64,000 bases of DNA from Idiomarina aquatica (GTDB lineage Bacteria > Pseudomonadota > Gammaproteobacteria > Enterobacterales > Alteromonadaceae), in contig NZ_SNXI01000001.1 in NCBI RefSeq assembly GCF_004362895.1, positions 248,001 through 312,000 of the forward strand. Direction: 5' to 3'. A program made the translations under genes and the position numbers. Under the pieces are notes generated by a model. The model had not been told where the DNA came from. It did no database searches and was given only the letters and a program-made list of their open reading frames with translations. Below are positions 7,975-56,807 of this stretch, one piece after another. Position 1 is the stretch's first letter, and the number at the start of each line of letters is the position of its first letter.

Positions 7975-8883
7975 ATGATGGCGGCAACGGCAGAGCAAAA
8001 ATACGCATTTAATAAACTGCAAAAACGTATTCGACGGGAGACCGGCAAAGCGATAGAGCAGTTTGGCATGATTGAAGCCGGTGACAAAATCATGGTTTGT
8101 TTGTCCGGCGGCAAAGATAGCTACACGCTGCTCGATACCCTCCTCTATTTGCAACGCGTTGCGCCAATTCAATTTGAGCTGGTGGCGGTTAATCTTGATC
8201 AAAAACAGCCTGGCTTTCCGGAACACGTGTTACCGGAATACTTAAAGGACTTAGGTGTAGCCTACGAAATCGTTGAGGAAGACACCTACAGCATTGTTAA
8301 GGACAAAATCCCGGAAGGCAAAACCACCTGTTCGTTGTGTTCGCGATTGCGTCGCGGGATCCTATACAAAACCGCGAAACGCTTAGGCGCAACCAAGATA
8401 GCACTAGGCCATCACCGGGATGACATGATCGAAACACTGTTTTTAAATATGTTTCATGGTGGCAAGCTCAAGTCGATGCCACCGAAATTAGTTAGTGACA
8501 ATGGCGAACACGTGGTGATTCGACCACTGGCGTTTTGCCGGGAAAAAGACATTGCTCGCTATGCCGATGCCATGGCCTTTCCGATTATTCCCTGCAACCT
8601 CTGTGGTTCACAGGAAAATTTACAGCGCAAACACATCAAGCAAATGTTGAATGACTGGGACAAGCGTTTTCCCGGTCGCATCGAAAGCCTGTTTACAGCG
8701 ATGCAAAACGTGACTCCATCACATCTAGCCGATGCCTCGCTATTTGACTTTAAAGCAGTGGAAGCAACCGGCGTGGCGGATGAGAATGGAGATACGGCGT
8801 TTGATGCGCCGCCATTTACTGAAACAAAAAAAGGGCCGCAAAGCGACCCCGTTAATACCATTAAGATTACGCAAATCGCCTAG
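7975..8883 (+). CDS. ttcA: tRNA-cytidine(32) 2-sulfurtransferase TtcA
   Basis: Fe-S dependent PP-loop enzyme that thiolates C32 in certain tRNAs. Of its 302 residues, the PP-loop S-G-G-K-D-S is at 44-49, and cysteines C119/C122 and C207/C210 sit in the family's cluster and thiolation positions. Two adjacent ATGs (7975, 7978) could serve as start. The final 60 bp also carry the terminator of the convergent Bax-like gene, and the two stop codons overlap (8880-8883). Confidence 0.96.
8826..8850 (-). terminator. intrinsic terminator of the Bax-like gene, inside ttcA
   Basis: Read on the minus strand, GGGTCGC-TTT-GCGGCCC forms a 7-bp stem (one G-U pair in RNA) followed by seven T residues. It lies downstream of the minus-strand stop at 8880 and within the plus-strand ttcA reading frame, so it terminates the convergent transcript while encoding TtcA C-terminal residues. 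Confidence 0.8.
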
Positions 8884-33360: not shown

Positions 33361-33752
33361 CTATTCGCTGCGTACGATATCAGCGCCATTAATAAAAAAC
33401 GGTTCGGCTTGCTGCTCTGGCTTGACCGGCGTTGGCACAGCTGGCGTGCCAACATATAAAAAGCCAACCACCTCGTCATCGACACCACAGCCAAGTTGTT
33501 CCCGCACATAGTCATCTTCAGCCAACCAGCCGGTGCGCCAAATTGCACCCAGTCCCATCGCGAAACATGCCTGCTGCATTGCCATGGTGGCACAGGCAAC
33601 AGTCGCATATTGTTCATGACGGGGTACTTTTTCGTTATCGACATAACGTAGACAAGTGGCGATAATCATTGGCGCGCGAAACGGAATTTGTCCGGCCTGC
33701 TCGACCCGTTCACTGGAAAAGTTATTAAGTCTTGCTGCCTGTTGATAAATAT
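33361..33752 (-). pseudogene. ydjA: YdjA-type nitroreductase, 3' part (split by transposon)
   Basis: C-terminal about 128 residues of a small FMN-dependent nitroreductase: F-R-A-P-M-I-I, K-V-P-R-H-E-Q, G-A-I-W-R-T-G and G-F-L-Y-V-G-T-P are YdjA-family motifs. The N-terminal 61 residues are encoded 22.9 kb away at 56625-56807 on the same strand. The open frame continues upstream into the transposon end (to about 33786), but those residues are transposon-derived. Joining the two parts at the duplicated AATAT gives an uninterrupted protein of about 189 residues. The flavin-binding N-terminus is missing here, so the fragment should be inactive. Confidence 0.95.
33748..33752. repeat. target-site duplication, left copy (AATAT)
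   Basis: AATAT immediately outside the left terminal inverted repeat; the identical five bases flank the right end at 56625-56629. Five bp is the Tn3-family duplication length. Confidence 0.95.
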
Positions 33753-33785
33753 GAGGGTAAGCCGGGATTTGTACAGAATTCGCCA
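33753..33785 (+). repeat. left terminal inverted repeat
   Basis: Begins GAGGGTAAGCCGGGAT and continues through TGTACAG and ATTCGCCA. Compared with the right end read inward, it differs only at positions 7, 17 and 25. Tn3-family ends usually begin GGGG, so GAGGG is slightly divergent. Confidence 0.93.
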
Positions 33786-33887
33786 AATCCAGCTTAATTA
33801 ATTGTTAATTAAAGAGTTTATACTTTATAAGGTGTGTTCTTGGAAATTAGTCGATCTCAAATGGAATTAGCCGGGAATTTTAAGACA

Positions 33888-35366: not shown

Positions 35367-36653
35367 TCAGATGGTTGATAGATCGACCCCGTAGTTGAGT
35401 TCCTCTGCGAAGTCCGGCAGTCCGTAACCGATGGTTTTCTTGTAGAACGGAGAGACCTTCGCAGTCGGGGCCTTCTTCTTGTGCTTCGTGGTGTAGAGCA
35501 TTCGTGCCCGCATCACCTCAAAGGAATAACCACGCCCTTCACGGTTCTTGTCCTTGGCCAATCGGTTGATGGACTCCGTGTAAGCGTTGGTGACGGGAAT
35601 ATCCGTCTCGAAGTAGATCATGATCTCTTCGCGCCAGTTACACACCGCCCTGACCAGATCGCTCCAGACTTCCTTCTGGCCCTTCGGGATGGTGGCTATC
35701 CATTCGTCCAGGGCGGCTTCTGCCTGGGGCCGTGTGGTAGCATTCCAGATGCCGTAGAAGCGCTCCTTGTGCTCGTAGGCGGCCAGCAGTTGCGGGAATG
35801 CGCCTGTCCAGGTCTCCATGATGAGGCGCTCCCGGTCTGAGACTTCGTGAGCGCGTTTCAGCAGGATTTTCCGGTCTCCCTTAAGGGTTCGGCTCTGTGA
35901 GGGCTTCAGCTCCTTTCTGAGGCCCTTGCGCACCTTCTCCAGCGCATCGTTGGCCATACGCACCACATGGAACTTATCGACCACGATGCGGGCCTGTGGC
36001 AGCACCGCCTTGACCGCTGCCCGGTAGGGGTTCCACATGTCCATGCTGACGATCTCGACCTTCTGCCGGTCTTTGAGCTTCATCAGGTAGTTGGTCACCG
36101 CGTCCTGACGGCGGGTGGCCAGCAGGTCGAGCAGGGTTCGCTCCTCGATGTTGGTCAGGATGCAGCGGTAGCGCTTGTTCAGGTACAGCTCATCGATGCC
36201 CAGAATGCGAGGCGTCTCGAAGCGGTGCCAGCGCCCCAGGAACTCGACGCGGGCGTTAAAGATATCGCGTACCGTCTTCTCGTCCAAGCCGGTCTGCGCC
36301 GCCACGAAGGTGTAGGGGTGGTTGAAGGATTCCTTCTCCACGTACTCATGCAGCCGCAGCGTCATGCGGAAGCCATCCACCATCTCCGGTAGCTGGGGCC
36401 TGAAGGTGGTCTTGCAGGCCCGGCAGGTGTACCGACGGCGGACCACCCAAAGGGTGACCCGCTTGCCGTGAATGGGCAGATCCCGATAAGGAACATCACG
36501 CTTACCGAACCGCACGAGCTCACCCATCACGCCGCAGTCCTCGCAGGCGATTGGATCAGGCGCGTCCACTTGGAAGTGCATGTCTTCGTCGGTGTGTCGG
36601 CAGTCCAGTACTTGGTATGTTGACAAGTGGATTATGTTGGCAGAACCGATCAC
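35367..36653 (-). CDS. ISL3-family transposase
   Basis: 428 residues. The N-terminal zinc-ribbon-like Cys pairs (C-E-D-C-G and Y-T-C-R-A-C), a helix-turn-helix, then the DDE domain: G-I-D-E-L near residue 161, D-K-F-H-V-V-R near 238, and N-A-Y-T-E-S-I-N-R near 368. Length and motifs match full-length ISL3 transposases, so it is probably functional. High G+C suggests an origin such as Pseudomonas relatives. A TetR gene ends 6 bp upstream. Confidence 0.93.
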   Translation of the reverse strand: MIGSANIIHLSTYQVLDCRHTDEDMHFQVDAPDPIACEDCGVMGELVRFGKRDVPYRDLPIHGKRVTLWVVRRRYTCRACKTTFRPQLPEMVDGFRMTLRLHEYVEKESFNHPYTFVAAQTGLDEKTVRDIFNARVEFLGRWHRFETPRILGIDELYLNKRYRCILTNIEERTLLDLLATRRQDAVTNYLMKLKDRQKVEIVSMDMWNPYRAAVKAVLPQARIVVDKFHVVRMANDALEKVRKGLRKELKPSQSRTLKGDRKILLKRAHEVSDRERLIMETWTGAFPQLLAAYEHKERFYGIWNATTRPQAEAALDEWIATIPKGQKEVWSDLVRAVCNWREEIMIYFETDIPVTNAYTESINRLAKDKNREGRGYSFEVMRARMLYTTKHKKKAPTAKVSPFYKKTIGYGLPDFAEELNYGVDLSTI

Positions 36654-36659
36654 AATCAG

Positions 36660-37220
36660 TCAGCCCCTCTTGCGCGTAGCATCGAGCAGACTTTCTCGTA
36701 TCTTTCCTATATTTGGAAGATTTATATCAGACAATGTTGCCATCCATAATCCATCAACAGTTAATCTTGTTATAGCTAAGTGATCATCCCCATCTGTCTG
36801 AAAATGTTTTCTTTGCATCTTGTTGAACCAGCTTGCCCAAATCGAACGAAGTTCTGATTCACCAATAGAAAGTACTGCTAAAGCCGTCCTTCTGTCATGC
36901 ATTCCATCCCACGCTGAAGCCATTGAAAATTCAATATATGCACGTGTAAATGATCCGTACTCTTCAGGATCCTCAGCCATGTGTTGCTCTAAGTCTCTTT
37001 CAACTGAAAAAAGTAAATCATTGAACATTGCCAGTATTAAATCTTTTTTACAGGGGAAGTGATGCAAGAACCCGCCCTTTGTAACCCCAGCCATTTCAGA
37101 TACACCCTGGACTGTCACTGCGGCCAAACCACGCTTGAGCGCAATAGAAACCCCTGCTTCTATAAGTTGCTTTTTTACAAGTTCTGGCTGTTTTTTCCTG
37201 CGATAGGATTCCATTGGCAC
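36660..37220 (-). CDS. TetR-family transcriptional regulator
   Basis: 186 residues. N-terminal TetR helix-turn-helix (about 15-60: I-E-A-G-V-S-I-A-L-K-R-G ... M-A-G-V-T-K-G-G-F-L-H-H-F), then a helical ligand-binding domain. It sits between the transposase gene and the DUF3817/export passenger genes on the same strand. It probably controls the export gene through the dyad at 38144-38161; that link is inference. Ligand unknown. Confidence 0.9.
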   Translation of the reverse strand: MPMESYRRKKQPELVKKQLIEAGVSIALKRGLAAVTVQGVSEMAGVTKGGFLHHFPCKKDLILAMFNDLLFSVERDLEQHMAEDPEEYGSFTRAYIEFSMASAWDGMHDRRTALAVLSIGESELRSIWASWFNKMQRKHFQTDGDDHLAITRLTVDGLWMATLSDINLPNIGKIRESLLDATRKRG

Positions 37221-39005: not shown

Positions 39006-40019
39006 CTATGACGGGCGCGGTTTTTGCGGCGTCTTGGTATTGAACCACTGTTCAATCATTGCTTTTTGCGTCTCGATAACCGCGTTAAGTTGCACTGACT
39101 CATGCTTTAATGCCTGTTTTTCTTTTGTGAGCTCCGTGAGCGACGTTTGTAAGCTCTCCTGTTTGTCGTGGGCACCTTGTAGTTCGCTCGTTACGCCTGC
39201 AAACCGGGCTTCCAGTCGGTCGTACTGTTGTTTTAACTCGGATAGCCGAGCTTCCGAACTTCGACTTTCCTGGTATACGGCATCGTAGTGTCTCTTAAGC
39301 TCCGCCAATTGAGTTTCGAGTTGAGTATTGCGTTGCGTCAGCTCTGAATAACTGTGCTGCCGTGCAGTCAAGGTTTGCTCCAGCTCAGCGACCTCACTTT
39401 GCAGCCCCTGAACGTCTCGCTCGTAGCGCCGCTGCTCGTGCTCTCGTTGCTCACGGACCGAATCGCGATAGTGATTTAATGCTTCCCGGGCTTGTGTGTG
39501 TTTTTCTTCCAGAGACGCAATACGATCATCTTTTTCAGACAGGCGTTGTTTCTGTGAGGACAGATCGGATTGGAGTCGCTCATTCTCAACTTCCAGCTGA
39601 TGGTTTATCTCTCGAAGTTGCTGCTGGTGCTGCTCGGCTTGTTGCAACGTTTGCATTAGCTCCTCAACATGCGTTTGCGTGGCCAGGAGCTCCTGACTTT
39701 GTTGCTCGAATCGCTCCTGCCAGGCATTCACCTGCTCGCTGTGCCGCTCCTCTTGCGCTTCCAGTGTCTGATTCGCCTCGGCTTTAAGGCGACTGGAGAG
39801 TTGGTTGACCAACGCGATAAGTTCATCACTCAACGACGCTGAGAGTGCCGTTTTGTCGTCATCGGTTTCCAACTCTTTTAAGTAACGGTGGATCGTTGTT
39901 TTTGAGCCGGTGTTGCCGAGTTCAATACGTACCGCATCAATCGACACTGATTCGCCCCGGGCGATTAACGCATTGCGCGCCTGCTCTACTGACTTTTTCG
40001 TAATACCGCCTCTGGCCAT
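39006..40019 (-). CDS. tnpT: TnpT-like cointegrate resolution protein (KfrA-type DNA-binding coiled coil)
   Basis: 337 residues. The N-terminal about 60 residues form a KfrA_N-type helix-turn-helix (M-A-R-G-G-I-T-K-K-S-V ... G-S-K-T-T-I-H-R-Y-L-K). Residues about 70-320 are an almost continuous Gln/Glu/Leu-rich coiled coil. In Tn4651-type transposons TnpT assists the tyrosine recombinase TnpS at the rst site and is divergent from it, exactly the layout here. KfrA-like plasmid proteins share this architecture, but context decides for TnpT. Confidence 0.87.
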   Translation of the reverse strand: MARGGITKKSVEQARNALIARGESVSIDAVRIELGNTGSKTTIHRYLKELETDDDKTALSASLSDELIALVNQLSSRLKAEANQTLEAQEERHSEQVNAWQERFEQQSQELLATQTHVEELMQTLQQAEQHQQQLREINHQLEVENERLQSDLSSQKQRLSEKDDRIASLEEKHTQAREALNHYRDSVREQREHEQRRYERDVQGLQSEVAELEQTLTARQHSYSELTQRNTQLETQLAELKRHYDAVYQESRSSEARLSELKQQYDRLEARFAGVTSELQGAHDKQESLQTSLTELTKEKQALKHESVQLNAVIETQKAMIEQWFNTKTPQKPRPS

Positions 40020-45248: not shown

Positions 45249-46244
45249 TCACCCAAATGTTGCTACTCCAAATCCTACAACAAGCAATAGCACAAATAAT
45301 ATGGCCGCCAAACCAAACGCTTGAAGACCTCCTTGTTTGATTACACTAATGTGAGTAAGCATACCCAAAGCAGCCATCGCCACACATAGCAAATACGTTG
45401 CCACGCTTGATAAAATATCGATGAATGATGACGGTAATATTTCAAGCGAATTAATTACAATGACGCCAATGAATAAAAACGCGAACCAAGGAACCGTTAT
45501 CCGTTTCTCAACAGCAGATACGTTCGAGCCTTGAAAACGAGACTTTGACCAGATAGCAACAATCAGTAGTACGGGGACCAGCAATACGACGCGGAACATC
45601 TTTTCTAAAACAGCAATATGTGCTGCTGATTCACTTATTGCATCTCCTGCAACAACCACTTGAGCGACCTCATGAATGGATACGCCAGCCCAAAGACCAT
45701 ACTGGTGATGCGTCAACGGCGCTAATTCCAACAACATTGGAAGCAGAAGCATTGATAGTGTGCCAAAGACGACCACTGTGCTAATGGCTGTCAAAACTTT
45801 GTGCGGCTTTGCATTAATGATCGGTTCGAATGCGGCGACAGCTGCCGCACCACAAATGGCACTTCCAGCTGCAACCAATAAGGATTGCTCGGTATCCAAA
45901 CCAAACAGTCGTCTTCCGAGCCACACACCTACACATAGAATCGTTGCTACCATGATGACCGCACTGAGTACACCATATAATCCAATATCGGCAAACGCTT
46001 GAAACGTAATATTAAAGCCGTATAAGACGATCGCAGTTCGCAAGATAGTGCCTTTTGCTACGTTCAACCCAGACGTTAACCGAGATTTCCAAACGTTGGG
46101 TAAAGCGTGGCTTATCACTATGCCTAACGCAATACTTATTAGAAGCGGAGATATCGTTTCTAAAAAGAAAACTTGATGCTTTCCCCATAATACAGTGGCG
46201 GCTATGCCCATTGATGCGAGTAGCCCGGGAATTATATTTTTCAT
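45249..46244 (-). CDS. yeiH: YeiH/UPF0324 family putative exporter
   Basis: 331 residues with about ten hydrophobic helices. Signature segments include G-I-V-I-S-H-A-L-P-N, G-T-I-L-R-T-A-I-V-L-Y-G-F, G-S-A-I-C-G-A-A-A-V-A-A and W-A-G-V-S-I-H-E-V-A-Q-V-V-V-A-G. The family is annotated as a sulfate/sulfonate-type exporter but the substrate is not firmly known. Divergent from a LysR regulator with a 95-bp AT-rich gap, the same arrangement as yeiH-yeiE in E. coli. Confidence 0.88.
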   Translation of the reverse strand: MKNIIPGLLASMGIAATVLWGKHQVFFLETISPLLISIALGIVISHALPNVWKSRLTSGLNVAKGTILRTAIVLYGFNITFQAFADIGLYGVLSAVIMVATILCVGVWLGRRLFGLDTEQSLLVAAGSAICGAAAVAAFEPIINAKPHKVLTAISTVVVFGTLSMLLLPMLLELAPLTHHQYGLWAGVSIHEVAQVVVAGDAISESAAHIAVLEKMFRVVLLVPVLLIVAIWSKSRFQGSNVSAVEKRITVPWFAFLFIGVIVINSLEILPSSFIDILSSVATYLLCVAMAALGMLTHISVIKQGGLQAFGLAAILFVLLLVVGFGVATFG

Positions 46245-46339
46245 GCGATCCTCATCATTATTTTTTCCTAGTATTAAAATTATATTTCAAATAATATTGA
46301 ATAAAACAAATTATTAATCGATAAAGATAAGTATTATTT

Positions 46340-47197
46340 ATGATTAATTTGAGGCAACTATACATTTTTTCGGTGGTCGCAGAGTCTAATAGCCTGGCGT
46401 CAGCCAGTGAGCAATTGAATATGACGGCTGCAGCCGTCTCGTTAAGTCTAAAGGGGTTAGAGCATCAACTGAATACTCGTCTACTTCAGCGAGCGCCGGG
46501 CAGAAAGAGTACAGACAAAACTATCTTGTTGACATCAGAAGGAGTCTGGTTGAAGCAAAGAGCGCAAGATATCTTAGCGCTTGAAAAAAGCACTCAAATG
46601 TATTTTAAACAGCGACAGCAAACGGAGCCGACAGTGCTGAACATTGGCGCGAGTCAGACCGTTGGAAATTATTGGCTGCCCCGTTATATTCGGGACATCA
46701 AGCAACGCTATCCATGCTGCCAAATCAACGTTTTTATCGGTAACACTGATGAGGCTTTAGACCGTGTACAAACATTTCGTGACGATATTGCCCTAGTGGA
46801 AGGTCCAAATCACCATAGTGCATTGAAGAGCCGATGCTTTAAAAAAGATAGTCTCGTGCTTATCGCGCCATCAGACAACGAATTTGAGTCACTGCAAACT
46901 GCGCCTTGGCTGATCCGGGAACGAGGCTCTGCAACGCGAAAATATACCGAACAACTATGGGCTGAATTAGTCATCGAACCAAAAGATGTGACACAATTCA
47001 ATACCAATGAAAGCATCATCCATTCTGTGGCATCAGGTGTCGGTATCGCTTATGTTCCTCGGATCACGACACCTCTTCTATTGGAGGCCGCTCTGGTAAA
47101 GGAGATACCTATAAATAACAATTGTTATCGCTCTTTGTTTATTGTGAAGCATAAGGAGCGGCACTCCGAGTTGGCTTGGATCGACAGAATAGTTTAG
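46340..47197 (+). CDS. LysR-family transcriptional regulator (YeiE-like by context)
   Basis: 285 residues. The N-terminal helix-turn-helix (about 1-60: L-R-Q-L-Y-I-F-S-V-V-A-E-S-N-S-L-A-S-A) is followed by a periplasmic-binding-protein-like effector domain. Divergent transcription from yeiH suggests it controls that gene. E. coli/Cronobacter YeiE senses sulfite; the same role here is inference. Confidence 0.88.
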   Translation: MINLRQLYIFSVVAESNSLASASEQLNMTAAAVSLSLKGLEHQLNTRLLQRAPGRKSTDKTILLTSEGVWLKQRAQDILALEKSTQMYFKQRQQTEPTVLNIGASQTVGNYWLPRYIRDIKQRYPCCQINVFIGNTDEALDRVQTFRDDIALVEGPNHHSALKSRCFKKDSLVLIAPSDNEFESLQTAPWLIRERGSATRKYTEQLWAELVIEPKDVTQFNTNESIIHSVASGVGIAYVPRITTPLLLEAALVKEIPINNNCYRSLFIVKHKERHSELAWIDRIV

Positions 47198-47276
47198 TCT
47201 GGTAATTACTACAAATCTAGCTATAAGCAATCTGAATAACTGCATTATGGAAGTAGAACGCTTCAGTTTGGCATAT

Positions 47277-47290
47277 ACTTCTCGAGAAGT
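47277..47290. promoter_or_regulatory. 14-bp perfect palindrome ACTTCTCGAGAAGT
   Basis: Lies about 95 bp upstream of the cytochrome c-propeller gene, after the LysR gene. A TTACTCAA/TTGAGTAGTAA inverted pair also spans 47292-47353. Candidate operator; the protein is unknown. Confidence 0.45.
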
Positions 47291-47383
47291 GTTACTCAAC
47301 TGAGAATCCTTTTTAATGGCGTTCTCTCGACTATATCATTCATTTGAGTAGTAACCACGTTTGCATCATTAAGGAATAAAAAA

Positions 47384-48850
47384 ATGTGCTACCAAAAACC
47401 GACTATTTTTTTGAAGCCGTTAGCCATTGCCATTGCCATTCTGTTGGGTTTGCAGGCAAATGTAACGCATGCTGAGCAAGATAATAGTCAAAATTTCGAC
47501 GACGGAGCGCAAGTTTATAAAAGTTATTGCGCAGCCTGTCATCAAATGGATGGATCAGGTGTTCCGGGTTCATTTCCTCCCCAAAAGGGTCATGCTGTCG
47601 AAATGTTTAATTTAGAAACAGGTATCACAGGAAGACAATATTTAGTCAAAGTTGTCAATTATGGATTGACTGGCTCGATTGAGGTAAATGGCATAGACTA
47701 CAGTGGTAACATGCCGGCTTGGAAAGGAGCATTAAGCGATCAGCAAATTGCCGATGTGTTAAATTTTATTGTCACGTCGTTTGGAAATGATAACCAACTT
47801 CAAAAACCGTTCTTGCCGTATACTGCTAATGAAATCAACGCAATAGCAAACGAAGACATATCAGGAACTGATGTTTACAGGCTACGATTAAGTATGATCG
47901 GGCAAAAACCACCGAACCCCGCTAATAAAGTTTCTGATAAATCCGATGCACTAACGTTAGATGAAGCGCTGTCATCACCCATCTACATAGCAGCTCAAAA
48001 CAGTAGCCAAATAGAAAGACTCCCATCACTACAAGTATGGGAGGGAGTGAAAGGCGCACATTATGATGCGATCACGCCCGATGGAAGTCGTCTATTAGTC
48101 TCGGGTTTTAAGACAGGTCAAGTTTATATAGTTGATACTGGTTCTGGTAAAATCTTGGCCAATCTGGCAGCAGGAGATATAGCACAAGGTGTTAAAATTT
48201 CACCAAATGGAAAACTAGGGTTTGCGGTTGTTCCTAAAAAGCATTCTGTAACAGTGATTGATATGGAAAAAATGACGGTTATAAAACAAATAAAAGTTGG
48301 CAAGGAGCCTCACAACACAGTTTTCAACGCTGATGGGAGCAAGGCTTTCGTTACTCTGCAGGGAGCGGGGGCTATTGCTGTCATTAATATGCAACACTTA
48401 ATAAAAGAAAATGAGATATCGACACCTGGTATAAAAACACCGCATAACATTGATATAAGCCGAGATGATAAAAGGTTGTGGCTTAGAGATTTTACAGGAA
48501 AGGTTGGTGTATTAGATATCGCATCAGAGAAAATGCTTAAAGTATTCAAAGTCGGTACAGGACATGGAGGGATTGACGTAATTCCAAATAGCCACTTAGT
48601 AGTAACTGGGGCAATTTCAGATTCTATTATATCGATAATTGATACAGAGAAACTTAAACTGGTTAATACGATAGAAGTTGGTGCGGGACCACATGGTGTG
48701 AGAGCAAGCGCTGATGGTCGATTTATTTTTGTATCAGTAACTGGCGAAAACAAGATCACGATTATCGACAGCACAACCTTAACCGTAGTGCGAGAGCAGC
48801 CAATAAATGGTCGTTTCCCATTTTGGATAGCTGTGCAAGGAAACCCGTGA
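47384..48850 (+). CDS. secreted cytochrome c fused to a YVTN-type beta-propeller
   Basis: 488 residues. A signal peptide (about 1-30, ending T-H-A) precedes a class I cytochrome c domain with C-A-A-C-H at 49-53 and a later G-N-M-P-A-W axial-Met motif. From about residue 215 the protein is a beta-propeller of about 40-residue repeats with I-V-D-T-G-S-G-K, V-I-D-M-E-K-M and I-I-D-S-T-T-L type blades (YVTN family). Nitrite-reductase-like cytochrome cd1/NirN proteins share this layout, but I see no clear heme d1 ligands. Periplasmic redox role likely, substrate unknown. Confidence 0.82.
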   Translation: MCYQKPTIFLKPLAIAIAILLGLQANVTHAEQDNSQNFDDGAQVYKSYCAACHQMDGSGVPGSFPPQKGHAVEMFNLETGITGRQYLVKVVNYGLTGSIEVNGIDYSGNMPAWKGALSDQQIADVLNFIVTSFGNDNQLQKPFLPYTANEINAIANEDISGTDVYRLRLSMIGQKPPNPANKVSDKSDALTLDEALSSPIYIAAQNSSQIERLPSLQVWEGVKGAHYDAITPDGSRLLVSGFKTGQVYIVDTGSGKILANLAAGDIAQGVKISPNGKLGFAVVPKKHSVTVIDMEKMTVIKQIKVGKEPHNTVFNADGSKAFVTLQGAGAIAVINMQHLIKENEISTPGIKTPHNIDISRDDKRLWLRDFTGKVGVLDIASEKMLKVFKVGTGHGGIDVIPNSHLVVTGAISDSIISIIDTEKLKLVNTIEVGAGPHGVRASADGRFIFVSVTGENKITIIDSTTLTVVREQPINGRFPFWIAVQGNP

Positions 48851-48964
48851 TTTGGGGGGGGGGGTGACGGCTCCCCACGAAAAAAATCCACAAGACCGAT
48901 GAGTTTGGATCTGTCATATAATTGAAATTTCATCGATAAAATTGTGTTAGTTCAAGGAAAAAGT
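48851..48964. other. G11 homopolymer and spacer after cytochrome gene
   Basis: The stop of the cytochrome c-propeller gene is followed at 48854-48864 by eleven consecutive G residues. The rest is AT-rich without an ORF. Such tracts vary by slippage; here it is outside coding sequence. Confidence 0.6.
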
Positions 48965-49045
48965 CAATTTGCCGACATTATTGCCCAGCTATCGCCTTAC
49001 TGGGCTGCTCCCCGATTATCATCTTAAGTTACTGATGGCTGAGCC
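48965..49045 (+). pseudogene. degenerate tnpA 3' end, copy 1
   Basis: Encodes A-D-I-I-A-Q-L-S-P-Y, then resumes with P-D-Y-H-L-K-L-L, matching the last 45 residues of the intact TnpA with an internal deletion of about 50-60 bp. Same orientation as the intact gene. It lies directly beyond the arsJ stop and marks an older Tn3 copy or end. Confidence 0.7.
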
Positions 49046-49073: not shown

Positions 49074-50288
49074 CTAAGAATTCCTCCCCATATTTCGTTC
49101 GGGTAGCTTACTGATAGCGGCAGTGGATAATAGCAACAACAACGTTGATATCATTAAACACGCAATGAGTCCCCATTGCTGATACACCCAGCCGGATAAA
49201 ATGGTGCCCAAGAGACGTCCTGCGGCATTGGCCATGTAGTAAAAACCAACGTCCAAAGACACACCATCGGCGCGTGAGTATGAGACGATAAGATAGCTGT
49301 GCAACGATGAATTAATGGCAAATAGAATGCCAAACAGTCCCAAGCCAATCATAATGCTCTGGGCAACCGGTAAGTTTTGCCATAGTGCCAGCCCTAGCGC
49401 AAGCGGACTCAGGGTCAATAATGCATTCCATATTACGGTTTGAGTTTTAGGAACTTCCTTGCTACTTCTGGTGAGCTTTGGCGCAATGCTCTGCACAACC
49501 CCGTAGCCAATAACCCACAGGGCTAAAAAGCTGCCGATTTGCCACTGATTCCAGTCCAGTTGGCTGGCCAAAAATACGGGTAACGCCACCACAAACCAGA
49601 CATCGCGAGCGCCGAAGAGTAGAAAGCGTGCGCCCGATAAAATATTAATCGGGCGGCTTTTGGACAACATGTAGCTAAATTTCGGCTTGAACTTTGCCTT
49701 GCCCGATTCCTTGTTCAGGAAAACCAAACTGGCGACCCAAACCACGAACAGCATGACTGCCATCGCCAACACTGCGCCCTGAAAGCCGATTAACGTTAGC
49801 AACAAACCACCGAGAAAGAAACCAACGCCTTTTAGTGTGTTTTTCGATCCGGTGAGTATCGCAACCCACTTATACAGCTGACTTTGCTGGTCGTCTGGTA
49901 CCAGTAACTTAATCGTGCTTTTGGCGCTCATTTTATTGAGATCTTTAGCAATACCGGATAATGCCTGAGCTGCCATGACCCAAATGACGGTGAGCATTGA
50001 CGCCGGCACCAGCAGCATGGCGAGCGCCACAATTTGGATGCCCAGCCCAATGTTCATCGTGCGGTTTAAACCCCAACGGGCGCCTAGCCAACCACCAAAG
50101 AGGTTAGTGACAATGCCGAAAAACTCGTAGAACAAGAACAACATTGCCACTTCCAGCGCACTGTAACCGAGCTGGTGGAAGTGCAGCACCACCAGCATAC
50201 GTAGTGCACCGTCAGTCAGGGTAAACGCCCAATAATTGCCTGTAACAATGAGGTACTGGCGGATCGCAGGCGATAGATTACTGAGCAT
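49074..50288 (-). CDS. arsJ: organoarsenical effux MFS transporter ArsJ
   Basis: 404-residue major facilitator with about 12 helices. ArsJ exports 1-arseno-3-phosphoglycerate made by the neighbouring GAPDH, thereby removing arsenate. Assignment rests on the family's pairing with an arsenic-operon GAPDH (start overlapping the GAPDH stop by one base) and on N-terminal features such as F-T-L-T-D-G-A-L-R-M-L-V-V-L-H-F. Last gene of the ars operon. Confidence 0.9.
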   Translation of the reverse strand: MLSNLSPAIRQYLIVTGNYWAFTLTDGALRMLVVLHFHQLGYSALEVAMLFLFYEFFGIVTNLFGGWLGARWGLNRTMNIGLGIQIVALAMLLVPASMLTVIWVMAAQALSGIAKDLNKMSAKSTIKLLVPDDQQSQLYKWVAILTGSKNTLKGVGFFLGGLLLTLIGFQGAVLAMAVMLFVVWVASLVFLNKESGKAKFKPKFSYMLSKSRPINILSGARFLLFGARDVWFVVALPVFLASQLDWNQWQIGSFLALWVIGYGVVQSIAPKLTRSSKEVPKTQTVIWNALLTLSPLALGLALWQNLPVAQSIMIGLGLFGILFAINSSLHSYLIVSYSRADGVSLDVGFYYMANAAGRLLGTILSGWVYQQWGLIACLMISTLLLLLSTAAISKLPERNMGRNS

Positions 50289-51283
50289 TAGCCGACCTTC
50301 TTGACCAGTTCGACCGCCCGGTTAGCATAGCCCCACTCGTTGTCGTACCACGCATAAATTTTTACATGCGTGCCATTAATAACCTTGGTCGACATCGCAT
50401 CAACAATACTCGAGCGCGGGTCAGTTTTATAATCGATGGATACCAACGGACGCTCTTCGTAACCAAGAATGCCCGCCAAATAACCCTCTGCGGCATCTCG
50501 CAGCCAGCCATTAATTTCATCAACCGATGTCGCATTCTCGACCTCAAAGGCACAGTCAGTTAATGATGCATTGGCAAGCGGTACACGCACAGCGTGGCCG
50601 TCAATTTTGTCCTTAAGTTCCGGGAAGATTTCGACAATAGCTGTCGCTGAGCCAGTGGACGTTGGGATTAAGCTCATGCCACAGGCGCGCGCCCGGCGTA
50701 AATCCTTGTGCGGTGTATCCAAAATACTCTGGGTATTGGTTAAGTCATGAATGGTCGTGATCGATGCGTGTTTGATGCCTATTTTGTCCTGTAACACTTT
50801 CACCACCGGAGCCAGACAGTTAGTGGTGCAGGAGGCGGCTGTGACGATTTGATGCTTGTTCGGGTCATAGAGATGATCGTTAACGCCCATGACTATGTTT
50901 AAAGCACCGGATTCTTTAACCGGTGCCGATACGACGACACGTTTTACACCCTGTGCCAGATAGTCATTGAGCACCTTTACGGTTTTCATTTTACCGGAAG
51001 CTTCTAACACCACGTCACACCCGCTCCAATCAGTTTCTGCAATGGCTTTGTGCTGACTGAATACAATGCGTTCATCACCAATTTGAATAGCATGTTCTGT
51101 GCCCTCGGCCTCATAGCCCCAGCGACCATGCACAGAGTCAAAATTCAGCAAGTGCGCAAATGTAGCCGCATCGGCACCGGGATCATTGACCTGAACAACC
51201 GTCAGTTCAGGATTATCCCACGCCGCACGTAACGCTAAACGTCCAATACGTCCTAACCCATTAATTCCAACTTTAATCGTCAT
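50288..51283 (-). CDS. arsenic-operon glyceraldehyde-3-phosphate dehydrogenase
   Basis: 331 residues, type I GAPDH. Rossmann [10 protein letters not shown] at the N-terminus and catalytic C152 in A-A-S-C-T-T-N-C. I chose ATG 51283 because AAGGAG precedes it; the frame extends upstream into acr3. In ars operons this enzyme makes 1-arseno-3-phosphoglycerate from arsenate and G3P for ArsJ to export. Confidence 0.93.
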
Positions 51284-51293
51284 AAATGACTCC

Positions 51294-52343
51294 TTAATTT
51301 TGACTGAACCAGTGGCGTGTGCGGTTAGCAAACCAAACTAACGAGAGCATCACCGGCACTTCGACTAACACCCCCACCACTGTGGCTAATGCGGCGCCGG
51401 ATTGCAGTCCAAACAGAGAAATGGCTACGGCAACAGCCAGCTCGAAGAAGTTCGAGGTACCAATTAAACAGGCTGGTGCCGCGATGCGGTGAGGTAATTT
51501 AATCAACAACGCAATGAGAAACGTAACGGCAAAAATGCCATAAGTTTGTATCAGCAACGGCGTTGCTATCATGGCGATGTCTAAGGGACGCGTTAGTAAC
51601 ACTTCTGCCTGAAAGCCAAACAACAACACCACGGTGAGCAGTAACCCGACAATGGACCAAGGCTTCAAGCGAGCATCAAAGGCCTGTAGTGCCGATTCGA
51701 CATTATGCTGCTGCCTCGTGGCTTTGCGTTTAAGCTTTTTGCGCGTTAACAACCCGGCAACAAGGGGCGCAACGACGTATAGGGCAACACTTAACAGCAG
51801 AGTTTGCCAGGGTACGACAATGTCGGTAATGCCAAGTAGCAGCGCCGCAATGGGAGCGAAGGCGAAAATCATAATGACATCGTTGACCGACACTTGTACC
51901 AGTGTATAACTGGCATCGCCTTTGGTCAGCTGGCTCCAGATAAACACCATGGCTGTACAGGGCGCAACCCCCAGTAAAATCACACCCGCCAGATACTCAT
52001 TGGCAGTTTCGGGATGGATAAAATCGGCAAAAACTCCCTTGAAAAACAGCCAACCAACCAGCGCCATAGTAAAGGGTTTTACCAACCAGTTAATGGCGAC
52101 CGTTAGAATAAGTCCTTTGGGCTCTTTGGCTATTTGTGTAATTGACTCGAAATTTACCTGCACCATAACCGGATAAATCATCAGCCATATTAGTACCGCT
52201 ATTATCAGGTTAACTTGTGCAAACTCGATACCTGACATGACTTCAAAAATTGACGGGAATACATTGCCTAGTAGCGTTCCTGCAATAATTGCCAAGGCCA
52301 CCCAGACGGATAAGAAACGTTCAAACACACCCATTATCGACAT
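51294..52343 (-). CDS. acr3: arsenite efflux transporter ACR3
   Basis: 349-residue ten-helix arsenite permease of the ACR3 (bile/arsenite/riboflavin transporter) family. The conserved functional Cys is in [13 protein letters not shown]. The start (52343; a second ATG at 52334) overlaps the arsC-arsR stop by 23 bp, showing coupling. It exports As(III) made by the ArsC domain encoded upstream. Confidence 0.94.
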
Positions 52344-53076
52344 CCTTAACCTGTTGAGGAATTAACGACGCGTGGTAAGTTGCTGTGGTTTTAATGATAG
52401 TTGCCATCCAGTCCTGCAAGGCAGGATTAATTCGATAGTACACCCAGCGCTGATTTTTTCGATCGGCCAGCAGCCCGTATTCTCGCAATTGCGCTAGATG
52501 CCGCGAAACCTTAGGTTGCGACATCTCGGTGGCATCGACAAACTGACAAACACATAATTCGCCATAGTGTTGCAACATCAAAATCATTTGTAGTCGCAGT
52601 GGGTCAGCCATAATTTTGAAGAACTCGTGAGGTGCATCAAACAGCTGCGGGCGGTCACTTTTCTTGCGTAAAATAAGTAACAGCATCTTTATACGCTCAC
52701 TTAATTCATGCGCCGTTTTTCTAAATGCATCGGTTTTTTTGCTGGTTACCGGATCAGGAAAGTCCCAGGCAATGAAATGCTGGTCACCGCACAGCGTCTG
52801 ACACTCTGTACGGGCGCGATCACAGAGGCTGATCACGTAGTCGTAGTTATTGAACTCAATGTCACTAATTGCTTTTGAACGCAGTCCCTCAGTTGCGACG
52901 CCCAGCTGCTTTAGGGCTGCTAAAGCAGCTGGCTCAGGTTGGGTAGGCTCAGTGCCGGCACTGGCAACCGCAAAGTCGGCCCCGGCAAACTGGCGAAAAA
53001 TCGATTCAGCCATTAACGAACGGGCAGAATTCGCTGTACAAAGAAACAAAACCGATATTGATGAATTGCTTATCAT
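52321..53076 (-). CDS. arsCR: fused arsenate reductase-ArsR repressor
   Basis: 251 residues from ATG 53076, chosen because GGAG precedes it with good spacing; an in-frame ATG at 53091 lies inside the operator. Residues about 7-135 are a low-molecular-weight phosphatase-type ArsC with C13-x5-R19 (C-T-A-N-S-A-R). Residues about 150-240 are an ArsR winged helix with E-L-C-V-C-Q metal-binding Cys pair and S-Q-P-K-V-S-R-H-L recognition helix. One protein thus reduces arsenate and senses its product. First gene of the operon. Confidence 0.93.
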
Positions 53077-53087
53077 CTCAGCTCCAT

Positions 53088-53108
53088 ACATATGAATCTA
53101 CATATATA
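53088..53108. promoter_or_regulatory. ArsR operator
   Basis: ATATG-AATCTA-CATAT dyad (53090-53105) directly upstream of the arsC-arsR start, inside an alternating AT tract. ArsR operators are typically ATATG/CATAT-like dyads near the promoter, so the fusion protein probably autoregulates here. Confidence 0.7.
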
Positions 53109-53274: not shown

Positions 53275-53655
53275 TTACACATTACGAATCCAGCCGAGTG
53301 TTAACATACCCAAGATCGTCATGAGCAGTGAGCCCAGCATGTGGATGGATACGGCACCGATTGCTAAGGCAAACCGCCTCTGTTGCAGTAACGTGACGAC
53401 CTCAGCGGAAAATGTTGAGAACGTGGTAAATCCACCGAGAAACCCGGTAATGACTATCAGCCGCCACTCCGTTGCCACCGCAGCCTGTGTGCTGAAAAAA
53501 TTCAAAGCCATGCCGATAAAAAAGCCACCCAACAGATTTGCGGCAAGGGTGCCTAGAGGTATGGTGGAAGACATGGCATTGAGTTGTAGGCCAAGCAACC
53601 AGGGGAATAAGGCACCGGCCGAGGCTCCGGCGCAGATTGCAAGGATTGAGTACAT
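53275..53655 (-). CDS. crcB: fluoride channel CrcB/Fluc
   Basis: 126 residues from ATG 53655. Four hydrophobic helices and the hallmark G-G-F-T-T-F-S-T-F-S motif with N-L-L-G-G-F of the Fluc family; works as a dual-topology dimer exporting F-. The frame extends to 53715, but that part is the riboswitch leader. Its expression is very probably controlled by the fluoride aptamer upstream. Confidence 0.94.
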   Translation of the reverse strand: MYSILAICAGASAGALFPWLLGLQLNAMSSTIPLGTLAANLLGGFFIGMALNFFSTQAAVATEWRLIVITGFLGGFTTFSTFSAEVVTLLQQRRFALAIGAVSIHMLGSLLMTILGMLTLGWIRNV

Positions 53656-53718
53656 TAGTGCGATCCCGACCTGAAGTATTACATGGAATGAATACCCGGA
53701 CTGGCGAAAGGGCAATAA

Positions 53719-53806: not shown

Positions 53807-54242
53807 GTCACAGCTATCATACCGAACGTTGGCAACCCGGACAATGCCGTTGACTATTGCCACCAAGACAACATGCATCGAGCACATTATCAGTGCCATT
53901 TCTACAATGCCGTGGTGTCGTCCTTAGCGTACGTTTTCGTTAGGTTGGACTTCAAACTCCAGTAACTTCACTCGGCCAACCATGTAAAGAATTCATCGCG
54001 GAAATCGCCGAGATGGCAATAAATCCACCAAAAAATAATGCCAAACAAGTATATTTAGAAAGCATGAAAAACGTTACAATCTGATCTGTTACCAACAGTA
54101 TACATGTCATTGTGTGACCCGGCTAAATTCTCCATTATTTATCGTGCATATAGCCAACAGCCCAGTTATCAACGTCGCCATTGAAGATTGTGATAAGCGC
54201 TGCAAGTATATCAAACGGACAGTGGACGCCCAGCGGTCAGAA
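53807..54242. other. non-coding stretch in island; possible 37-codon ORF
   Basis: No recognised gene. On the minus strand 54065-53952 encodes a possible 37-residue peptide with one hydrophobic segment (L-A-L-F-F-G-G-F-I-A-I-S-A), but no good ribosome-binding site precedes it. The remainder looks like eroded sequence before the tnpA remnant at 54243. Confidence 0.35.
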
Positions 54243-54390
54243 GACCGTACCGAAATTACTGCCGACATTGTCTCCAGGCTATCGCCTTACCGGACTGCAC
54301 ACATTAATCGTTTTAGTGACTATATACTCGATATAGATCGGCAAACGTTGAGACCCGATTTCCACATCACTGCTTTATCTAAACGCAGGG
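54243..54390 (+). pseudogene. degenerate tnpA 3' end, copy 2
   Basis: Encodes T-E-I-T-A-D-I-V-S-R-L-S-P-Y-R-T-A-H and continues collinearly to L-R-P-D-F-H-I-T-A-L, matching the last 45-50 residues of the intact TnpA. Same orientation, diverged at the DNA level, no start. Together with copy 1 it brackets the arsenic and fluoride genes. Confidence 0.85.
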
Positions 54391-54467
54391 AGGGCTCAGG
54401 AAGTGACGATATTAACTTTGCAAGTGCCGATCGCAAAGAGCCCGTCGGTCGGCTATAAGATTTCCAG

Positions 54468-55634
54468 TCAAGCGATTGCGGCTAAAAGCACGAGTCCGAA
54501 GCAACTCAAGAGCCCAAGAATAGAGACCCATTTAGGTATGAACCGCTGTGCTGGAGGGACTTTCAATGCCGCGATATTGGTTATTCCGTAATATATCAAT
54601 ACCGTGAACGCACTCAATGTCCAAGCGGTTTTAACACCGCCAAGCGTCGCGATCAATGACATTACAACGAACGTTATCCATGTAGCAGTTGGTGCAGACT
54701 TACGGTCACTACTCAACACCGCTATCCGATTAGGTAAGTCGCCTCGACGAGCCATGGCAAGAATAACCCTTGATACGCCTAGTATTAGATTTAAAACAAC
54801 GCTGCTCATTGCGACCACGCCTCCAATAATCACGACCCAGCGCCAATTTGAGTCAGCGATTAGGTGCGCGATATTGAAGTTACTTTGTTCAAAAGATGAG
54901 ATCCCACCCAAATGCAAGATCGTCAGGCCAACCGAAATATAAATCGCACTAATAAAGGCAAGCGTAATAATCACGGCCTTGGGGATATTTTGACGAGGCG
55001 CTCTGATTTCCTCACCCATGGTCGCAATTCGCCCGTACCCTGTGAAAGCAACAAACATCAAAGCAGCCGCATGAAATAGTGATAGTGGTGACGATACGCT
55101 CACGACTATTTCTTGTGCGTCACGCTCGCTAAAGCCCGCAGCAATAAATGTTACTAAACCCAGCAAGCTTACTAAGACCAATAATGAATTGAGCCAGTTC
55201 GTCCGACGTACACCAGCTAACACAAGGACCGTGAACATGAGCAAAAGACCGACAGCGATAAAGTTAACGACCCAGAAGGGCACGCTGATACTTAGACTGA
55301 TATACCAGGCAACCGCGAGCGCTGCGGTCGCTGCAGATGCGCTTTTAGCTACGACAAAAAGTATGCCGGCAATACGGCCACTTAACGGATTCAAGAACTG
55401 GTAGCCGTATTCGTACGTTCCACCGCTGACGGGGTGAGCAGCGGCAAGCTGTGCCGATGATAGACCGTTCATTAATGCCGTCGCCGCGGCTATTAAGATT
55501 GCGAACACTATACCTGAGCCAGCAATTTCAGCACTCAGTCCCACGCTTACATAGGCACCTGTACCAATGATTGAACCCAGCCCGATGACAAGTGCGCCAG
55601 ATAAACCTGTTTCCCTAACTAACTTGTTCGACAC
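54468..55634 (-). CDS. APC-family amino acid/polyamine permease
   Basis: 388 residues with about 11-12 helices. The N-terminal G-L-G-S-I-I-G-T-G-A-Y and A-A-H-P-V-S-G-G-T-Y-E-Y-G-Y motifs are those of the amino acid-polyamine-organocation superfamily. Somewhat shorter than typical members (430-500). It follows the cytochrome c'-like gene by 17 bp on the same strand, so the two are probably cotranscribed. Substrate unknown. Confidence 0.85.
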   Translation of the reverse strand: MSNKLVRETGLSGALVIGLGSIIGTGAYVSVGLSAEIAGSGIVFAILIAAATALMNGLSSAQLAAAHPVSGGTYEYGYQFLNPLSGRIAGILFVVAKSASAATAALAVAWYISLSISVPFWVVNFIAVGLLLMFTVLVLAGVRRTNWLNSLLVLVSLLGLVTFIAAGFSERDAQEIVVSVSSPLSLFHAAALMFVAFTGYGRIATMGEEIRAPRQNIPKAVIITLAFISAIYISVGLTILHLGGISSFEQSNFNIAHLIADSNWRWVVIIGGVVAMSSVVLNLILGVSRVILAMARRGDLPNRIAVLSSDRKSAPTATWITFVVMSLIATLGGVKTAWTLSAFTVLIYYGITNIAALKVPPAQRFIPKWVSILGLLSCFGLVLLAAIA

Positions 55635-55651
55635 GTCAGTAACTCCTCGTT

Positions 55652-56128
55652 TTACTTAAGTTCAAATAACGATTGATCGTTCATATAGCCGACGCCTTCG
55701 GCTCGATGGCAGGCCATGCATGCACCTTTTCCTTCTTCGAAGGCTTTCCATGCCTTCTTTTTATCAGCGCTGTCAAACGCTTCTTTTACGCTTTTCCAAG
55801 TACCATTGAAGAAAATGCTATCCGCATTAGGCTGACGTTTAGGGCGCTTTAAGTATCCATTTTGGATGGTGGTCTTTATTTTTCGCCAGTGATAACCGGC
55901 AAGTTTATAATTCTCTCGCGTCAAAGCTTCATAAACCTTTTCGTACCGCTCTCCAACTTCCCACATGGGTTGGTCAAAGCCACGTAAATAACCTTGAATA
56001 AGTTGAAAACGTTCTTCATTAGACTCCGCATTTAAAATCCAGCCTTTCGGGTTTTCTGCTTGTGCTAAACTCACCGTACTAAACATTAGTGCATAAGCCA
56101 CAAGCAAAGGGCGTGATAAATTTCTCAT
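55652..56128 (-). CDS. secreted c'-like cytochrome
   Basis: 158 residues with a signal peptide (cleavage after A-Q-A, about residue 24), a helical body, and one heme site C-M-A-C-H at 137-141 near the C-terminus, the layout of cytochrome c'/c556 proteins. A GGAGAG ribosome-binding site precedes the ATG. First gene of a probable operon with the APC permease and divergent from a PadR regulator. Ligand or partner unknown. Confidence 0.8.
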   Translation of the reverse strand: MRNLSRPLLVAYALMFSTVSLAQAENPKGWILNAESNEERFQLIQGYLRGFDQPMWEVGERYEKVYEALTRENYKLAGYHWRKIKTTIQNGYLKRPKRQPNADSIFFNGTWKSVKEAFDSADKKKAWKAFEEGKGACMACHRAEGVGYMNDQSLFELK

Positions 56129-56172
56129 GCTCTCTCCTTGAATAATAAAGGTTTGGCGTTTTTAATAATTTA

Positions 56173-56202
56173 ATATCGATTTTCGATATCGATTTTCGAT
56201 AA
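56173..56202. promoter_or_regulatory. tandem overlapping dyads between cytochrome c' and padR
   Basis: ATATCGA-TTT-TCGATAT (56173-56189) overlaps a second copy ATATCGA-TTT-TCGATA (56186-56201). Two 13-bp-spaced operators in the divergent promoter region are the expected target of the PadR protein, controlling both itself and the cytochrome/permease genes. Confidence 0.72.
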
Positions 56203-56224
56203 CAATAGTATTGCCGAGGATATA

Positions 56225-56527
56225 ATGCAAGATAGAGATTTGTTTTCTGGTTTTATTAAGTTACATATATTGCATCATGCCGCCCATGAGGACATATTCG
56301 GCACAGGGATGATTGAAGAGCTCGGTAATCACGGATATAAACTCAGTCCAGGAACTATCTATCCAATACTCCATAAGATGGAAGTGAATGGATACCTAGT
56401 GAGCGAAAAGCGTGAGGTCAATGGAAAAATACGCAAATACTATCGCAGTACTGCAGATGGACGACGAGCACTTAGCTTAGCTAAAGAGAAGGCACGTGAG
56501 TTGTTTGGCGAGCTGTTAGCGCCCTAA
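56225..56527 (+). CDS. PadR-family transcriptional regulator
   Basis: 100 residues, the short PadR type. Winged-helix core with G-T-G-M-I-E-E-L, L-S-P-G-T-I-Y-P-I-L-H-K-M-E and Y-L-V-S-E-K-R-E-V-N-G-K-I-R-K-Y-Y, all PadR hallmarks. GAGGATATA precedes the ATG. Divergent from the cytochrome c' gene with tandem dyads between them. Last gene before the right transposon end. Confidence 0.92.
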   Translation: MQDRDLFSGFIKLHILHHAAHEDIFGTGMIEELGNHGYKLSPGTIYPILHKMEVNGYLVSEKREVNGKIRKYYRSTADGRRALSLAKEKARELFGELLAP

Positions 56528-56591
56528 ATAAATCGACAAGAGATTACCGCCCTTGATTAAAGTTATATATTTCAATGATATAACTGTATTC

Positions 56592-56624
56592 TGGCGAATC
56601 CTGTACAGATCCCGGCTAACCCTC
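56592..56624 (-). repeat. right terminal inverted repeat
   Basis: Inverted copy of 33753-33785, 30 of 33 bases identical. Read inward it begins GAGGGTTAGCCGGGAT. It ends exactly where the AATAT duplication starts. Confidence 0.93.
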
Positions 56625-56629
56625 AATAT
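56625..56629. repeat. target-site duplication, right copy (AATAT)
   Basis: Identical to 33748-33752, immediately outside the right terminal repeat. Confidence 0.95.
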
Positions 56630-56807
56630 CAGCCAATAGCTGGCGGTCGCGGCCAAGGAACTCGACGAACCGAAACGGCGACAAGTTCATGTGATCAGGC
56701 ACCCGAATGGCTGCTTTTCGGATCATTTGCAGCTGTTGCGGCGTTGGCGCAGGCTCAATTAAACGCGGCATCGAAGAGCGCGTTGTCAGTAATTCTAATG
56801 CGTCCAT
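56625..56807 (-). pseudogene. ydjA: YdjA-type nitroreductase, 5' part (split by transposon)
   Basis: First 61 residues (M-D-A-L-E-L-L-T-T-R-S-S ... L-L-A-D-I) of the nitroreductase whose remainder is at 33361-33752. The R-S-S and R-V-P-D-H segments are the FMN-binding N-terminus of the family. After the duplicated target the frame reads E-G-stop inside the transposon repeat. Adjacent to and divergent from sppA, as ydjA is next to sppA/ansA in E. coli. Confidence 0.95.

Follow-up and report, generated by a model that had tools for sequence, protein, structure and literature searches.

The right-hand part of a 64-kb stretch of the Idiomarina aquatica genome (contig NZ_SNXI01000001.1, positions 248,001 to 312,000; this whole stretch of 64,000 nucleotides is referred to as the window) raises the question of why a gene coding for a PadR-family regulator stands back to back with genes coding for a cytochrome and an amino acid permease. 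Our analyses indicated that these genes probably form a cassette in which a ChrI-like PadR repressor controls a target operon; the cassette lies on a Tn3-family metal(loid)-resistance transposon and would answer oxyanion or oxidant stress, perhaps stress by sulfur species. The sequence comparisons argue strongly for the regulator and its predicted operator, whereas the function of the effectors is what we infer from their relatives and neighbours. The cassette is composed as follows.

54468-55634, minus strand: APC permease, 388 amino acids, GTG start, AA_permease_2 (PF13520)
55652-56128, minus strand: cytochrome, 158 amino acids, heme motif CMACH; exported (signal sequence recognised by eye), mono-heme, predicted c'-like four-helix fold
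56174-56201, no strand: predicted PadR operator, an overlapping pair of 15-bp dyads TATCGATTTTCGATA whose starts are offset by 13 bp; comparable sites are present at 23 further PadR loci
56225-56527, plus strand: PadR-family regulator, 100 amino acids, no Cys; PF03551

The open reading frames were found where the initial annotation had placed them, padR being divergent to the cytochrome-permease pair, and the two overlapping dyads that it had pointed out are both located in the gap between, with copies of TATCGATTTTCGATA at 56174-56188 and 56187-56201 whose starts are offset by 13 bp. The exact sequence TATCGANNNTCGATA occurs genome-wide at these two places only. A search of the window for TATCGANNTTCGATA with up to two mismatches gave eight matches over the two strands (five places) against a shuffle mean of 1.03, and none of 100 shuffles reached eight.

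Scanning genome contigs for the cytochrome yielded 29 loci including those of methanotrophs, Hyphomicrobium, Roseomonas, Shewanella and Microbulbifer. Neighbouring genes were scored with small profiles built on the sequences of these contigs; several of the contigs are short, so that the counts for PadR and DoxX are lower bounds. PadR lay no more than about 1 kb from the cytochrome in at least five of the 29 loci (L006, L014, L021, L026 and L028), and DoxX, which names a domain and not a function, adjoined it in at least eight (L006, L007, L013, L020, L021, L026, L028 and L030, among which L013, L020 and L030 are near kin). ChrA was close to the cytochrome in L014, L026 and L028 and TauE in L014 and L026, some of these being assigned by family models; inspection by eye added hemerythrin-like and rhodanese genes in L026 and O-acetylhomoserine sulfhydrylase-like genes in L006 and L019. 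The Hyphomicrobium locus L006, in which PadR is divergent from cytochrome-DoxX-permease, reproduces the arrangement of the window with DoxX added, and the Salinimonas locus L102 carries permease (76% identical), DoxX and PadR (64% identical) in that order with a tandem dyad upstream. PadR accompanies the cytochrome in five other loci and the window-type permease in two. The combination is not random, and the mere co-occurrence for which the initial annotation had allowed was not borne out by this neighbourhood check.

For mismatch scoring at other loci the dyad was taken as TATCGANNNTCGATA. The comparison covered 24 PadR loci, namely the window, five cytochrome loci, seven loci from sampled genomes and eleven from plasmids; the window is the source of the motif and was excluded from the counts over 23, and segments of up to 4 kb were examined with 300 shuffles each. 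In 22 of the 23 loci the best match stood ahead of PadR or of the operon containing it (0-3 mismatches; tied with another site in L026, L076 and L079), and 13 loci had a site that was both placed upstream and reached by fewer than 5% of the shuffles. A second site with three mismatches or fewer was located 13 bp away in 12 of the 23, and additionally in L014 (7024/7037) and L110. Among the cytochrome loci with a PadR, the dyad was exact in L006 and L021, had one mismatch at three places in L014 (two of them 13 bp apart), two mismatches in L026 and three in L028; L006 carries a second site, with one mismatch, ahead of DoxX. The chrA-linked loci L103, L104, L106, L109, L111 and L112 showed TATCGA-N3-TCGATA-like upstream sites with 1-2 mismatches, reached by fewer than 5% of the shuffles in five of them but not in L112, and weaker sites with three mismatches were present at the chrA-linked L079 and L080; the chrI gene of Bacillus cereus itself is outside this operator comparison. 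No cytochrome locus lacking PadR (21 of 24 checked, 400 bp upstream) had a site better than two mismatches, a value reached by L029 alone, and the four other PadRs of the genus had none better than three, which 142-194 of 300 shuffles also reached.

The comparison gives strong support to the view that the dyads are very probably the operator of PadR. Control through the dyads, as proposed in the initial annotation, thus gains from the recurrence of a similar dyad (0-3 mismatches) at 23 other loci of the PadR subfamily, with the reservation of the individually non-significant loci considered below. Among open-licence papers surveyed by title and abstract, none described an operator for this PadR group, and the accessible parts of PMC2936356, PMC7677001, PMC12191737 and PMC6305713 contain no operator, the last two mentioning chrA-padR or chrA in integrons.

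Several further sites were noted. In L026 the second dyad-like site (8414-8428, two mismatches), which ties with the site upstream of PadR, lies where the cytochrome gene ends, before DoxX; its position resembles that of the 8541 site of L006, and it could be an internal operator or chance. In Acetoanaerobium (L108:3001-5722) the PadR of this subfamily has an EamA-like transporter on one side and an ABC ATPase/membrane pair on the other (both recognised by eye), with an exact dyad at 3932 just before PadR; these neighbours are perhaps another effector type. A regulon extending beyond the locus was considered and set aside: the other genome places with one mismatch, themselves uninspected, numbered 13 versus 6 for a reversed control pattern, and the dyad-like site at 48630 sits within a coding region. 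No convincing promoter was found across the dyads, the sole sigma-70-like match near them (56199-56226, plus strand) overrunning the start codon of padR.

Comparison with family models showed that the regulator matches PF03551 with 65.1 bits (cut-off 27). The best solved relative of the PadR profile is Rv3488 of Mycobacterium tuberculosis (5zhc, 112 bits), yet the window protein remained below the cut-off of the Rv3488 family equivalog (NCBIfam NF053635; 101.9 bits versus 140). A profile built from six PadRs was run against 398 sampled genomes of the phylum and detected PadR at E<=1e-20 in nine of them, these being the window genome, G529 and seven others; G529 was taken as the source of the L021 contig, and L047 and L051, which gave the same scores, were taken as duplicates of L021 and counted once. 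All seven other strong matches lie by ChrA (L077-L080) or by TauE/SafE (L076 and L081, and one gene away in L082). Plasmid records matching the window PadR at 1e-5 amounted to 1882, with 708 from Klebsiella and 692 from Escherichia. Eleven plasmid loci (H1-H8, H10, H13 and H27), picked non-randomly from the 30 best listed, were opened; six had ChrA, one permease-DoxX and one ArsC as partner, and three were without a recognised partner. Rhodanese is a further neighbour of the PadR subfamily or the cytochrome, annotated in L111 and seen by eye in L026. The window genome has no PadR gene beside chrA, although kin of its PadR do adjoin ChrA. The window PadR is of the kind found beside ChrA or TauE, and this improves on the statement of the initial annotation that the pairing had no evident function.

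Neither Pfam nor NCBIfam models matched the cytochrome at E<=0.001. The Cytochrome c' model PF01322 did not match the window protein, and two family members and one distant homologue scored 14.4-18 bits against its cut-off of 26.5. Alignment of 21 members (the window and 20 of the 29 loci, nine being dropped as masked, broken, partial or near-duplicate) revealed the invariant motifs RGFDQPM-EVG-R, KRP-R and CxxCH, the last being CMACH at residues 137-141 of the window protein. The family is rare around the window genome, where two of 60 genomes matched (the window genome itself and G014, the latter with a 3' remnant); matches numbered ten of 369 in an even sample of the class (its own and nine distant homologues of 50-74 bits) and five of 398 in an even sample of the phylum (its own, G529 and three weak partial matches). 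A plasmid source of the cytochrome was dismissed, there being no PLSDB match at 1e-5, as were sequence relatives in the PDB, where the only hits were neurotrophins (E 0.03), taken as chance.

The predicted model of the cytochrome (predicted local distance difference test 83) is a four-helix bundle with CxxCH near the C-terminus, which would place the protein among class II cytochromes. The top Foldseek matches were to cytochrome c' with E 0.13 or worse, none being at E<=0.001. In a second structural comparison anammox, b562 and c' cytochromes scored Z 9.7-11.2, interspersed with unrelated helical bundles. Since Z values of about 10 are common among helical bundles, this fold kinship to c' is moderate evidence only; the c'-like label of the initial annotation is retained to that extent for the predicted fold, although no family model matches. 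Met55 and His141 are identical in all 21 members and in all nine distant homologues, most residues right around Met55 being variable, and judged by the end points of the alignment they would coincide with Met7 and His102 of cytochrome b562, which we take to be its heme ligands. Met55 and His141 are accordingly proposed as heme ligands from their conservation. With Met55 invariant and aligned onto Met7 of b562, the distal heme site is probably filled, and the conserved Met/His pair leads us to expect a six-coordinate electron carrier rather than a nitric oxide (NO)-binding cytochrome c'.

The permease belongs to the APC superfamily (PF13520, 100 bits versus a cut-off of 27) and gave 76.9 bits with the solved transporter 5oqt. 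Only two plasmid records matched it at 1e-40, the best being that of Salinimonas. At E<=1e-60 it was found in 13 of the 19 genomes of the genus, the sole copy in G014 being of the transposon type (97%). The window genome carries a second, chromosomal copy, 75-76% identical, beside a lysyl-tRNA synthetase-like gene (by eye), and no dyad with fewer than three mismatches was found in the 16 kb read there. A Sphingopyxis relative of the permease (44% identical) follows an ars operon, with no PadR annotated there. Nothing was found in favour of growth on amines.

The cassette lies at the right end of a transposon located at 33753-56624 (22,872 bp), whose inverted ends are identical at 31 of 38 positions and which is bordered by a duplication of AATAT. 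Its features, with those of the gene that it splits, are listed below.

33373-33750, minus strand: split nitroreductase, C-terminal part, residues 61-186
33748-33752, no strand: target-site duplication AATAT, left
33753-33790, plus strand: left terminal inverted repeat, 31/38 identical to the right end
39006-40019, minus strand: KfrA_N coiled-coil protein (TnpT-like), PF11740
40264-41508, plus strand: tyrosine recombinase (TnpS-like), PF00589
41533-44544, plus strand: Tn3 transposase TnpA, 1003 amino acids, PF01526, 474.7 bits
45249-48850, no strand: cargo common with G014, comprising a PF03601 membrane protein, a LysR-like regulator (by eye) and a cytochrome c/beta-propeller protein
49074-53091, minus strand: arsenic block of ArsC-ArsR fusion, ACR3, GAPDH (by eye) and ArsJ
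53275-53715, minus strand: crcB fluoride exporter
54114-54458, plus strand: open reading frame resembling the C-terminus of a Tn3 transposase (translations compared by eye), a transposon remnant beside the permease
56587-56624, minus strand: right terminal inverted repeat, about 60 bp past padR
56625-56629, no strand: target-site duplication AATAT, right
56625-56807, minus strand: split nitroreductase, N-terminal part, residues 1-61

The DDE_Tnp_Tn3 transposase, the inverted repeats of about 38 bp and the 5-bp target duplication place the element in the Tn3 family. The split nitroreductase, presumably ydjA-like, is intact beside sppA in both relatives read (L084 and L085). In the Tn4651-type subgroup of the Tn3 family the tyrosine recombinase TnpS goes with a coiled-coil partner TnpT; in the window the PF00589 and KfrA_N genes, which may correspond to this pair, are divergent and adjoin TnpA. 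Genome G014 shares about 45412-49000 and 54260-55809 with the window at 94-95% identity. In G014 the two shared blocks meet and have no ars-crcB block between them, the rest of G014 lying outside the search. The stretch of G014 matching the remnant open reading frame hits TnpA residues 958-1003. The PadR-cytochrome operon of L026 likewise has genes for a Tn3 transposase (40% identical) and a recombinase (55% identical) beside it.

Three other features of the transposon were recorded. The gene at 52321-53091 codes for an LMWP-type ArsC fused to ArsR (256 amino acids) and adjoins ACR3, the GAPDH-like gene and ArsJ. That at 47384-48850 codes for a fusion of cytochrome c with a YncE-like beta-propeller (with a further match to PF02239, cytochrome D1 heme domain, of 46 bits), is about 95% identical in G014 and adjoins the LysR-like gene and the PF03601 membrane protein. 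An ISL3-family transposase gene (35367-36653) is directly adjoined by a TetR-like gene (36660-37220).

The closest published counterpart is chrI-chrA1 of B. cereus SJ1, for which the accessible part of He et al. 2010 (PMC2936356) reports that the PadR gene chrI is co-transcribed with chrA1, that its transcript is 16-fold higher after Cr(VI), that an arsenic cluster lies close by and that many genera are known to have a PadR gene beside chrA. Both systems have a PadR of about 100 amino acids by a transporter gene in a mobile region with an ars cluster near. In B. cereus the PadR gene is induced together with the transporter, the chromate response was demonstrated by reverse transcription PCR (RT-PCR) and the effector is ChrA; in the window the effectors are a cytochrome and an APC permease, and a chromate response is predicted only. 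The chrA-padR pairs of class 1 integrons on enterobacterial plasmids, as far as the accessible parts of PMC12191737 and PMC6305713 go, are represented by L103 of E. coli, whose PadR is 54% identical to that of the window. Its tandem sites at 2218 (one mismatch) and 2231 (two), 13 bp apart, lie just before chrA, and its order is sul1-chrA-padR-IS6100; unlike in the window, chrA and then padR run in one direction, with no cytochrome or permease annotated. The plasmid of Salinimonas iocasae (L102) gave the best plasmid matches to both permease and PadR, and its upstream tandem sites have one and three mismatches; it differs from the window in having DoxX in place of the cytochrome and a single direction with padR last. 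With the cytochromes c', c556 and b562 the window cytochrome shares, in its predicted model, the four-helix fold, a heme motif near the C-terminus and a Met in the first helix of the bundle (as in b562), but it differs from them in its family-specific motifs RGFDQPMxEVGxR and KRPxR and in having no Pfam match over the cut-off. Literature connecting PadR to DoxX, TauE, hemerythrin or the cytochromes of methanotrophs contained, by title and abstract, nothing on the present system, and PMC7677001, considered as a source on PadR, was irrelevant in its accessible part.

From these comparisons the following working of the cassette is suggested. Two PadR dimers would occupy the two dyads spaced by 13 bp between the divergent genes and, when bound, would repress padR and the cytochrome-permease operon alike. 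PadR would be freed by an inducer, for which chromate or some other toxic oxyanion, or the stress that it causes through oxidants or sulfur species, is the most likely candidate; this class of inducer is proposed because of the published response of ChrI and because of the ChrA, TauE, DoxX and rhodanese neighbours of the kin of the window PadR. The derepressed operon would yield a periplasmic one-heme cytochrome, with His141 and Met55 as putative ligands, passing electrons in the envelope, together with an extra copy of the chromosomal amino acid permease. Cytochrome, DoxX, ChrA, TauE and APC permease would then be interchangeable effector modules of one switch. A wider proposal, which we put forward tentatively, is that one PadR subfamily, spread by class 1 integrons and transposons, governs a modular redox response of the envelope via a single conserved tandem operator, in which the RGFDQPM cytochrome and DoxX would be a periplasmic electron-transfer pair detoxifying oxyanions or reactive sulfur species, with ChrA, TauE or the APC permease as exchangeable transport partners.

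A number of observations weigh against the reading of the cassette as a ChrI-like switch with its target operon. ChrA had no match in the 19 genomes of the genus, that of the window included, so that the window version does not include ChrA-mediated export of chromate. The likeness of the window PadR to B. cereus ChrI comes from gene context and not from sequence comparison, and a tree meant to place the window PadR in a clade had poor resolution, only 4 of its 23 inner branches being starred. As to the operator, more than 5% of the shuffles reached the dyad in nine of the 24 loci (L028, L076, L078, L079, L080, L082, L105, L107 and L112), the sites of L028, L079 and L080 being individually no better than chance, and in L110 the upstream site is only second best, the best one being elsewhere. 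Promoters were not established, the region giving three sigma-70-like matches against a shuffle mean of 4.4. Finally, 24 of the 29 cytochrome loci are without PadR in the DNA examined, so that the cytochrome is not tied to this PadR switch, and G014 (L061:6607-7910) keeps the permease (97% identical) but has only the 3' remnant of the cytochrome gene and lacks a PadR of the window type; loss of PadR and most of the cytochrome with the permease kept indicates that the parts are separable.

That separate loss of parts in G014 also bears on the unlikely explanation that PadR, cytochrome and permease are chance cargo without joint function, only the autoregulation of padR being real. The position of the cassette at the transposon end beside a transposase remnant and the Sphingopyxis permease without an annotated PadR agree with it, but the presence of the combination in both Hyphomicrobium (L006) and Salinimonas (L102), where a dyad precedes the permease operon, argues against it. 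Still less credible is a defence against NO by a five-coordinate cytochrome c', at which the initial annotation had hinted with an NO challenge. The resemblance of the predicted fold to cytochrome c' (best Foldseek E 0.13; Z 9.7-9.8 for Shewanella c' entries) fits this idea, yet the invariant Met55, aligned on the axial Met7 of b562, makes it less likely; genes specific to NO were not noticed in the cassette, though none was searched for, and the L026 operon has a hemerythrin-like gene (by eye).

The main rival of the ChrI-like reading, with which it partly overlaps, is a possible but doubtful sulfur-species switch, in which sulfite, thiosulfate or reactive sulfur species would be the native inducer, the cytochrome and DoxX would make up an oxidising unit, TauE, ChrA or the permease would move sulfur compounds and chromate would act only as a sulfate mimic. 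TauE/SafE and DoxX (by family models and profiles) and rhodanese among the neighbours of PadR and the cytochrome, the O-acetylhomoserine sulfhydrylase-like genes of L006 and L019 and the PF03601 membrane protein on the same transposon are consistent with it. However, family names do not reveal substrates, no TauE or rhodanese was seen in the window cassette, and the only published inducer found for such a PadR, in the accessible part of PMC2936356, is chromate.

The ChrI-like reading, which we consider the probable one, bears on a regulator whose relatives are common on plasmids, linkage to chrA being known for the eleven opened loci only. The predicted PadR site of the window resembles that of the chromate-pump versions, and with the dyad shared, often in a 13-bp tandem, the binding site can be tested directly, and via it the inducer. 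The cassette points to a link between a cytochrome family without Pfam or NCBIfam match and a stress response, and suggests that effectors of very different kinds can come under the PadR switch.

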